DNA of 16,659 nt from contig JAUXJB010000009.1 in NCBI GenBank assembly GCA_030624945.1, positions 1-16,659 on the forward strand, in the 5' to 3' direction. Shown here piece by piece: positions 2,010 to 12,874 of the stretch (positions within the stretch are counted from its first letter, which is position 1; the number at the start of each line of letters is the position of its first letter). The DNA is from Deltaproteobacteria bacterium (lineage in GTDB: Bacteria > Myxococcota_A > UBA9160 > SZUA-336). The notes under the pieces were generated by a model. It did no database searches, had not been told where the DNA came from, and was given only the letters and a program-made list of their open reading frames with translations. A program made the translations under genes and the position numbers.

Positions 2010-2627
2010 CTAGCTCTGCTCCTCGAGAGCTCTTCGAATCCAGCGCCGATACGTTTCCGCCGGGTAAGCACCGGTGATGGCGGCCTCGCGGCCCTGTAGC
2101 TGAACAGCGGGGACCCCGATCACGCCGAGATCGAGTGCCGCCCTGTGCTCTTCCAGGACCTCCTCCAAGAGCGCGGGATCGTCGGCCCGCGCCAGGTTTC
2201 CCTCGGCCAGGCCGGCGTCTCTCCAGATGTCACGCAGCGTCTCGCGATCGGTGATGTCCCGGTTGTGGGTGAAGTAGGCTCGCAGGAGCCGGATGTGGAC
2301 GCGCTCGAAGGCGTCGGGGCCGATCCGCGCCGCGGCCTTGGCCACGAGGTGGGGCGGCACGCTGTGGCTCGGTGGTCCGGAATCGCCAGCCCAGACGTTG
2401 AACTCGCCACTCTCGTCTTCGGCCGCGGGGCGCATCCAAGCTCGGGTGTAGCCCCGGAACGTCTCGAGGTCCCGCTTCTCGTCCGGCTCGGGTCGCAGCA
2501 GGAAGCTGCGCCACGCGAACCCCACCTGATCCCCGAACTCCTCCCGGATTGTCCGCAGGCGGACCGCCGCGTTGAAGCACCAGGGTCAGAGGTAGTCGGA
2601 CCAGACGTTGAACACAATCCGCTTCAC
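2010..2627 (-). CDS. DsbA/FrnE-type thiol oxidoreductase, probable selenoprotein (UGA = Sec14)
   Basis: The frame starts at GTG 2627, preceded by an AAGGGGG ribosome site about 12 bases upstream, and ends with TAG at 2010, giving 205 residues. It is interrupted once, by TGA at 2588-2586. Reading through gives VKRIVFNVWSDYL-U-PWCFNAAVRL, so the TGA falls exactly where this thioredoxin-fold family has the first Cys of its C-x-x-C active site (here U14-P15-W16-C17). Downstream the protein is intact: an alpha-helical insertion, the helix HRAALDLGVIGVPAVQ with the cis-proline P173, and a normal C-terminus. FrnE/DsbA proteins of the 2-hydroxychromene isomerase-like group oxidise or shuffle disulfides. 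No signal peptide is visible, so a cytoplasmic role is likely. An ordinary gene call would begin at GTG 2525 and lose the active site. The alternative is a nonsense mutation or base error (TGC to TGA), but the exact position and the SECIS-like hairpin argue for selenocysteine. Confidence 0.85.
2554..2571 (-). promoter_or_regulatory. Candidate bacterial SECIS hairpin
   Basis: On the coding strand the sequence CGCGGCGGUCCGCCUGCG can fold as CGC/GCG plus GGC/GCC stems, separated by one bulged U on the 3' side, with the apical loop GGUCC. The stem begins 14 bases after the UGA and the loop guanines lie 20-21 bases after it. E. coli fdhF SECIS has two 3-bp stems, one bulged U and a GGUC loop at nearly the same distance; its bulge is on the 5' arm, so the match is close but not exact. 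SelB recognises such a loop. A competing hairpin at 2551-2564 is possible. Confidence 0.65.
2586..2588 (-). other. In-frame UGA, predicted selenocysteine codon
   Basis: This TGA is the only stop between GTG 2627 and TAG 2010 in this frame. It sits at codon 14, in place of the first Cys of the C-P-W-C motif, and is followed directly by Pro-Trp-Cys codons. Sec replacing the N-terminal (nucleophilic) Cys of a CxxC motif is the usual pattern in redox selenoproteins. Confidence 0.8.
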
Positions 2628-5016: not shown

Positions 5017-6366
5017 ATGGCTCGCTACGGCTTCGATCTCTTCACCATCGGCGGCGGCTCCGGCGGCGTACGCGCCGCGCGCGTGTCCGCGTCGTTCGGT
5101 GCGCGCGTTGCCCTCGCCGAGGAGCGTTACCTCGGAGGAACCTGTGTCAACGTGGGCTGCATCCCCAAGAAGCTCCTGGTCTACGCCTCTCACTACGCCA
5201 GCGACTTTCGGGACGCGAGGTCGTACGGCTGGTCCGTCGACAACAGCCAGGTCGACTGGGGAGCTCTGATCGCCAACAAGGACCGCGAGATCGCACGCCT
5301 GAACGGCGTCTACGGCCGCCTGCTCGGCGACGCCGGAGTGGAGCAGATCGAGGGCCGCGCGACGCTCGTCGATGCTCACACCGTGGCCGTGGGCGACCGG
5401 CGCTTCACGGCGGAGAACATCCTGATCGCGACGGGGGGCTGGCCAGCCCTGCCCTCCATTCCCGGCATCGAGCGCGTGATCACGTCGAACGAGGCGTTCC
5501 ACCTCAAGTCCCTGCCGGAGCGCGTGATCATCGTCGGCGGCGGCTACACCGCCGTGGAATTCGCGGGGATCTTCCACGGCCTCGGCGTCCAGACCACGGA
5601 ACTCTACCGCGGGCCGCTGTTCTTGCGCGGGTTCGACCTCGACGTGCGCCAGGTGCTCGCCGAAGAAATGCGCAAGCAGGGCGTGGATCTGCGCTTCGAA
5701 GCCGTCGTCGAGAAGATCGAGCGCACGGACGCGGGGCTCGTCGCCAGGCTCGCGGACGGAGGCGCGCTCGAGGCCGACGAGATCATGTACGCGACCGGCC
5801 GCCGCCCACTCACGCGGGACCTCGGGCTCGAGGAGGTCGGCGTCGAGCTCGACGCCAGGGGAGCGATCGTGGTCGACGAGTACTCGCGCTCGTCCGTCGA
5901 CCACATATGGGCGGTGGGAGACGCCACCGACCGCATCAACCTGACTCCGGTCGCGATCCACGAGGGCATGTGCCTGGCGAACACGCTCTTCAATGACAAG
6001 CCGACCAGACCTTGCCACGACGATGTCCCGTCTGCCGTCTTCAGCCAACCGAGTATCGGTGCGGTCGGTTTGACCGAGGAGCGGGCGCGCGAGCGATACG
6101 CCGAGCTCGACGTGTACAAGAGCCGCTTTCGCCCGCTCAAGCACACGCTCACCGAGAGCGACGAGACGACTTTCATGAAGCTGATCGTCGATCGCGAGAG
6201 CGATCGCGTCGTCGGCTTCCACATGGTCGGTGCAGATGCGGGCGAGATGACCCAGGGCGTCGCGGTGGCGATCAAGTGCGGGGCGACGAAGGCGCAGTTC
6301 GACGCGACGATCGGTATTCACCCGACGTCGGCGGAGGAGTTCGTGACGATGCGGGAGCCCGCTTGA
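5017..6366 (+). CDS. gor: Glutathione-disulfide reductase (NADPH)
   Basis: 449 residues, full length for the family. It reduces GSSG to GSH with NADPH through FAD and a redox-active disulfide in the cytoplasm. The FAD site is IGGGSGGVRAAR (11-22), and the disulfide is GGTCVNVGCIPKK (C43, C48). The NADPH domain has GGGYTAVEFAG (174-184) with R198 and R204 in YRGPLFLRGFD, the arginines that select NADPH over NADH. The second FAD motif is IWAVGDATDRINLTPVA. The C-terminal HPTSAEEF supplies the catalytic His/Glu pair (H435, E440). These features distinguish it from lipoamide dehydrogenase and mercuric reductase. A strong GGGGGAG site precedes ATG 5017. The stop TGA overlaps the ATG of the next gene by one base, so the two are probably translationally coupled. 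Confidence 0.95.
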   Translation: MARYGFDLFTIGGGSGGVRAARVSASFGARVALAEERYLGGTCVNVGCIPKKLLVYASHYASDFRDARSYGWSVDNSQVDWGALIANKDREIARLNGVYGRLLGDAGVEQIEGRATLVDAHTVAVGDRRFTAENILIATGGWPALPSIPGIERVITSNEAFHLKSLPERVIIVGGGYTAVEFAGIFHGLGVQTTELYRGPLFLRGFDLDVRQVLAEEMRKQGVDLRFEAVVEKIERTDAGLVARLADGGALEADEIMYATGRRPLTRDLGLEEVGVELDARGAIVVDEYSRSSVDHIWAVGDATDRINLTPVAIHEGMCLANTLFNDKPTRPCHDDVPSAVFSQPSIGAVGLTEERARERYAELDVYKSRFRPLKHTLTESDETTFMKLIVDRESDRVVGFHMVGADAGEMTQGVAVAIKCGATKAQFDATIGIHPTSAEEFVTMREPA

Positions 6367-12448: not shown

Positions 12449-12874
12449 CTAGAGTGTTTCGAGTCCGTCGAGCGCCTTCTGGAAACGCCCCGCGTGAGAC
12501 TTCTCAGCCTTGGCCAGCGTCTCGAGCCACTCGGCGATCTCCGCGAAGCCCTCATCTCGCGCGGTTCTGGCCATCCCGGGGTACATCTCCGTGTATTCGT
12601 AGGTCTCGCCCGCGACGGCGGCCGCGAGGTTGAGGTCGGTGCCGCCGATCGGCTTCTCCGTGGCGGGATCGCCCACCTGCTTCAGGAAGTCGAGGTGGCC
12701 GTGCGCGTGTCCCGTCTCTGCGTCGGCGGTGTTCTTGAACAGGCCGGCGACCTCCGGATATCCCTCGATGTCCGCCTGCTTCGCAAAGTACAGATAACGT
12801 CGGTTTGCCTGTGACTCCCCGGCGAACGCGTCCTTCAAATTCTGATGCGTCTTGGATCCCTTGAGATCGGCCAT
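12449..12874 (-). CDS. Rubrerythrin, diiron domain only
   Basis: 141 residues. Rubrerythrins reduce hydrogen peroxide at a non-haem diiron centre in the cytoplasm. The four-helix ligands are visible: E20 in [16 protein letters not shown]53-x-x-H56 in [10 protein letters not shown]90 and E93 in [12 protein letters not shown], and E124-x-x-H127 in [10 protein letters not shown]. Classical rubrerythrin has a C-terminal rubredoxin domain with four Cys; this protein ends after the diiron domain and has no Cys, so it needs an outside electron donor, probably the Fe-S protein encoded next. ATG 12874 is preceded by GAGAGGAAACG. It heads the operon and a promoter is visible about 200 bases upstream. 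Confidence 0.93.

Follow-up and report, generated by a model that had tools for sequence, protein, structure and literature searches.

The minus-strand gene at 2627-2010 of the window (the whole stretch of 16,659 nucleotides that was analysed) encodes a DsbA/FrnE-like protein, and the TGA that stands in place of its first active-site cysteine is very probably decoded as selenocysteine (Sec). Comparison with relatives points to an intact selenoprotein gene with Sec as the predicted residue. The features of the gene, all on the minus strand, are as follows.

2010-2627, minus strand: predicted DsbA/FrnE-like selenoprotein gene of 205 codons, from GTG 2627 (inferred start) to TAG 2010
2586-2588, minus strand: in-frame TGA, codon 14, the predicted Sec codon, corresponding to the first Cys of CPWC
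2577-2579, minus strand: TGC for Cys17, the second active-site residue; apart from the predicted Sec codon, no other position of the frame would encode a redox Cys/Sec residue
2554-2571, minus strand: SECIS-like hairpin, +15 to +32 past the TGA, with GUC in the apical loop and one bulged U
2109-2111, minus strand: codon for Pro173 in a GVP stretch (Gly171, Val172, and Pro173 are invariant in 37 aligned proteins)
2010-2525, minus strand: 171-aa fragment produced by ordinary gene calling, active site missing, listed as database protein P0002

The frame from 2627 to 2010 contains a single internal stop, the TGA at 2588-2586, in the context SDYL-TGA-PWCFNAAVRLR. When the TGA was read through, residues 7-194 matched PF01323 (DSBA) with an E value of 1.2e-20 (74.5 bits; cut-off 25.6), and the sequence on both sides of the TGA is conserved among relatives. 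The first-pass annotation, which had described one in-frame TGA exactly at the first Cys of the family CxxC with intact homology to either side, was thus correct on this point. It had also predicted that ordinary gene calling would start at GTG 2525, where the frame after the TGA begins, and lose the active site, and the protein database indeed holds precisely this fragment as P0002; the present reading corrects that entry. GTG 2627 is the putative start; in the same alignment column three of the TGA relatives have Met (L013, L014, and L017) and two have Val (L007 and L051). The motif DYxCPW was present in 119 of 121 proteins from a protein database search (P0001 included), the two exceptions being P0002 and P0035. 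The latter, 182 aa long and 67% identical, begins just beyond the motif and, judged from its sequence, is likely another selenoprotein shortened by gene calling. Against six other TGA orthologues (all but L051), dN/dS after the TGA was 0.20-0.37, at dS values of 1.0-2.0 that are near saturation. By this measure the region downstream of the TGA evolves as protein under purifying selection. At gathering cut-offs Rfam had no match in the window, and the sole NCBIfam match, to thioredoxin, lay under its cut-off.

Whether codon 14 alternates between TGA and Cys codons in homologues, the check that had been proposed, was answered in the affirmative. P0001 served as query against the 97 genomes of the relatives set and all 90 genomes of the class, the own genome being included in both. 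Matches at an E value of 1e-20 or better were obtained in 71 of the 90 class genomes, own included; two of these matches lacked the N terminus, leaving 69 orthologues, the window's gene among them, in which codon 14 was readable. It is TGC in 36, TGT in 25, and TGA in eight, with no other codon occurring, so that 61 of the 68 orthologues other than the window's gene have Cys. The TGA orthologues are L001 (the window's gene), L003, L007, L010, L013, L014, L017, and L051. No other disruption was seen in them, and the other stops in homologues that would have spoken against Sec are therefore absent from this group. Cys is encoded in each of the ten named genome-collection loci; seven were compared with class members, and six of them showed no difference over the compared stretch. 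A TAG reported for G028 falls elsewhere: codon 14 is Cys in that genome, and the alignment is stop-free over residues 6-203. TGA at codon 14 occurs in three further PF01323 proteins of the class, which are more distantly related. L055 (G084:C347), a DsbA-family protein, reads FSDYV-TGA-PWC and has a strong hairpin, only 0.2% of synonymous recodings folding as well; L053 (G005:C89) and L054 (G014:C16) read DYA-TGA-PWA and are without the second motif Cys.

The 69 orthologues were placed in a maximum-likelihood tree, with residues 14-26 masked. Six changes between TGA and Cys were needed on this tree, of which at least three were forced by well-supported branches; L051 and L110 are long branches of unsure placement. 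The TGA/Cys label was somewhat clustered, 16 of 500 shuffles giving a count as low. Constraining the TGA genes to one clade cost 69 log-likelihood units (AU p 0.006). As read from this tree, Sec has been gained, lost, or transferred several times among the orthologues. A tree with several TGA/Cys changes speaks against a single error or a single dead lineage.

A bacterial SECIS element is a hairpin close behind the TGA with a G in its apical loop. All eight TGA genes can form a SECIS-like hairpin there: positions +15 to +17 pair with +30 to +32, at least two of positions +18 to +20 pair with the far side, and GU is found at +22 and +23. The apical loop resembles that of Escherichia coli fdhF. 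The stem rule, which was drawn up after the sequences (L001 among them) had been inspected, holds for 8/8 TGA genes versus 5/61 Cys genes (Fisher p 1.5e-7, kinship ignored); when kinship was considered, only three independent TGA/Cys pairs were left, too few for a powerful test (sign test p 0.25). Folding energy over +13 to +35 was lower in TGA genes than in Cys genes (Mann-Whitney p 3.4e-5). Codon +11 is CGN (Arg) in every TGA gene versus 11 of the 61 Cys genes, and codon +7 is Ala in every TGA gene versus 16 of 61. The two strands of the window contain 328 TGA trinucleotides in all; the full hairpin pattern follows the codon 14 TGA alone, though eight of the 328 have folds at least as stable downstream. 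Folding of the single sequence was dropped as proof of a SECIS element: against dinucleotide shuffles the L001 hairpin was unremarkable in all three folding windows (z values of about 0, about 0, and 0.6). Because single-sequence folding gave no signal, only the comparison across relatives was used. Synonymous recodings folded as well in 10% of cases for L001, 2-4% for L003, L010, L014, and L017, and 15% for L013; L007 (42%) and L051 (59%) were no better than their recodings, so that only four of the eight TGA orthologues were under 5% in this test. The hairpin at +15 to +32 would serve as the SECIS element that lets SelB deliver Sec-tRNA. The stem pattern is also kept in five Cys orthologues (L016, L022, L027, L081, and L095), which may reflect recent Sec-to-Cys changes or chance.

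The own genome (G000; 1.78 Mb, 301 contigs, 73% complete) was searched for the Sec machinery, as had been suggested, with a divided outcome. selA (528.7 bits) and selD (311.9 bits) were found; selB did not exceed its cut-off (best E value 4.3e-19), and tRNA-Sec was not found in this 73%-complete assembly. The selD gene (L045, G000:C264:175-1095, plus strand) itself carries one in-frame TGA, near the N terminus in the context GG-TGA-ARKLGAEDLVK, at the usual Sec place of SelD; the own SelD is likely a selenoprotein as well. Use of Sec by this organism, as originally proposed, is thus supported by the TGA/Cys alternation in relatives, by selA, and by the TGA-bearing selD. A genome without selB or tRNA-Sec had been named in advance as evidence against Sec, and formally this is what the own assembly presents. 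Yet its tRNA genes number only nine, no EF-Tu exceeded the cut-off, and it alone among the 97 genomes gave no match, however weak, to the tRNA-Sec model, so that the missing selB and tRNA-Sec carry little weight. Absences in G000 are in general not to be trusted despite its 73% completeness rating.

All seven other TGA genomes have both genes. selB was over the cut-off of 242.25 bits in each (G006, 290.5; G022, 297.7; G027, 304.9; G068, 294.1; G071, 293.0; G074, 302.3; G080, 256.8 bits), and each gave a full-length tRNA-Sec match (G006, 75.6; G022, 73.2; G027, 65.7; G068, 73.2; G071, 72.5; G074, 73.9; G080, 71.8 bits). Since the tRNA-Sec cut-off of 47 bits passes weaker matches too, being exceeded in 5 of 14 control genomes, the tally was set at 58 bits or more. 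At this level tRNA-Sec is present in 73 of the 97 genomes (counted by hand), and 72 of them have a selB match that exceeds the selB cut-off, when each gene is counted over the whole set. The Sec machinery is thus widespread in the class, which makes it permissive rather than diagnostic. Full-length tRNA-Sec matches occur twice in G062 (C140:707-801 and 1978-2072) and in G029 (C29 and C192); they may be true duplicates or assembly artefacts. ARAGORN found no tRNA-Sec in the selB loci of ten relatives. The contig with the own selA runs on for 425 bases past the gene and ends with an open frame that is HNH-like by eye. When the own SelA, the HNH-like frame, and an Rng-like neighbour were sought in the same kind of loci (ten relatives' selB loci), selA adjoined selB in L041 only, and a place for selB immediately beyond the end of the own selA contig is therefore not proposed.

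Two readings dispense with Sec. Were the TGA a true stop, it would be a nonsense mutation or a sequencing error in the Cys codon of a broken gene, or else the genuine product would be the fragment translated from GTG 2525. TGA is one base change away from both TGC and TGT, and the window stems from a fragmented assembly, as such an accident would have it. However, codon 14 is TGA in seven further genomes as well, which are not a single clade, the flanks are conserved with purifying selection past the TGA, no second internal stop is present in the frame, and the fragment from GTG 2525 would be devoid of the active site; a true stop is accordingly regarded as very improbable. The other reading is a changed genetic code, in which the organism reads TGA as Cys or Trp throughout. 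A TGA at an expected Cys is just what a Cys code would give, but TGA closes 5 of the 16 frames checked in the window, selA is present, the TGA of selD lies where that enzyme usually has Sec, and the relatives with TGA at codon 14 possess selB and tRNA-Sec. We consider a changed code barely conceivable and retain Sec at codon 14 as the explanation.

The structure model of the protein, built from 37 aligned sequences with the TGA entered as Cys, had a pLDDT of 94.4 and a pTM of 0.91. Its top match in the PDB was FrnE from Deinococcus radiodurans (TM 0.82), which was also the best sequence match (E 2.1e-12). Cys17 is invariant in the 37 aligned proteins, and Pro173 presumably forms the cis-Pro loop of the thioredoxin fold. 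The first strand of the model starts at residue 4. Apart from predicted Sec14 and from Cys17, the protein contains no Sec or Cys residue, none being present after residue 17, and because there is no other Cys, this pair would carry all redox work. From fold and motif, the product is predicted to be a cytoplasmic, FrnE-like protein with Sec14/Cys17 as its sole redox pair. It would act as a thiol-disulfide oxidoreductase: Sec14 would attack the disulfide of a substrate, and Cys17 would resolve the intermediate. The second CxxxxC pair is absent; hence the protein is named FrnE-like and not D. radiodurans-type FrnE, and its regeneration must take another route. Conceivably the enzyme is re-reduced by the thioredoxin or the glutathione system.

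The fold is common to human kappa-class glutathione transferase (E 4.4e-8) and 2-hydroxychromene-carboxylate isomerase (E 8.5e-8), and UPWA replaces UPWC in the two distant TGA relatives L053 and L054, both of which would suit a selenoprotein acting like one of these enzymes instead of as a disulfide oxidoreductase. Against such an activity, the motif of the window's protein is UPWC with an invariant Cys17, and FrnE is the best match in sequence as well as in fold. A transferase- or isomerase-like function is therefore unlikely, and a disulfide oxidoreductase is preferred.

The statement of the first-pass annotation that DsbA-like selenoproteins had been reported before is sound, with the correction that the UxxC kind itself is already in print (PMC1088965, PMC2398784). 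As these sources describe them, DsbA-like UxxC selenoproteins have been known since 2005, and the window's gene adds a member. PMC1088965 lists nine DsbA-like UxxC sequences in COG2761; PMC2398784 distinguishes DsbA 1 (63), DsbA 2 (18), and DsbA 3 with UxxV (5); a table line in PMC5029168 gives 41 and 45 for DsbA-like proteins; PMC9312934 has one DsbA-like selenoprotein; and a 2026 review describes two forms (PMC13188914). According to these descriptions, the published UxxC kind (PMC1088965; DsbA 1 and DsbA 2 of PMC2398784; form 1 of PMC13188914) has in common with the window's gene a PF01323 domain, widespread Cys homologues, Sec (predicted in the window's protein) where CxxC has its first Cys, and a hairpin after the TGA, which in the window's gene is a candidate SECIS element. 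Compared by description, the window's gene differs in coming from an uncultured, probably Myxococcota-like lineage. DsbA-like form 2 with DxxUP (PMC13188914), which L053 and L054 fit, and DsbA 3 with UxxV (PMC2398784) likewise belong to PF01323 and have Sec at the same place, but in the window's gene, unlike these, the second Cys is retained. PMC8945050 presents FrnE (D. radiodurans structures PDB 5cnw, 5cp1, and 5xwh) as a disulfide reductase/isomerase of the cytoplasm, with a second, C-terminal CxxxxC pair in many members though not in all. The window's protein resembles D. radiodurans FrnE in the DsbA fold, the CPWC-type motif, and the lack of room for a signal peptide; it differs in its identity of about 25%, the predicted Sec for Cys, and the missing second CxxxxC pair. 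Search listings of the open literature, with the terms tried, returned no paper joining selenoprotein, Myxococcota, and selenocysteine. Of the papers listed for FrnE together with selenocysteine, no title bore on the subject, nor did any among the titles shown by a wider search.

The new part is modest: repeated Sec/Cys exchange within one uncultured lineage, tied to hairpin-building codons. The window's gene and selD indicate at least two selenoprotein genes in this lineage. In a broader formulation, a FrnE-like enzyme of the cytosol would have switched several times between Cys and Sec at the first Cys position of its active site, each Sec gene carrying the same in-frame hairpin, with the RNA signal dictating part of the protein; we regard this proposition as evenly balanced. 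If it is true, the family is a natural laboratory for Sec gain and loss in which the SECIS constraint is visible as amino-acid choice. With Sec and Cys versions that closely related genomes have swapped repeatedly, the benefit of Sec to a DsbA-fold enzyme could be tested directly, the faster catalysis proposed in the first-pass annotation being an expectation of the literature; the same exchange would allow testing how SECIS signals arise inside coding sequence.

Four neighbours of the gene in the window were sought in the loci of 37 relatives (L002-L037 and L051, with flanks of mostly 1.5 kb); none was matched, and an operon partner is therefore not proposed. The window contains a gene for a pyridine-nucleotide disulfide oxidoreductase (5017-6366, plus strand), for which the same comparison of loci gave no conserved linkage. 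A rubrerythrin gene is located at 12449-12874 on the minus strand.
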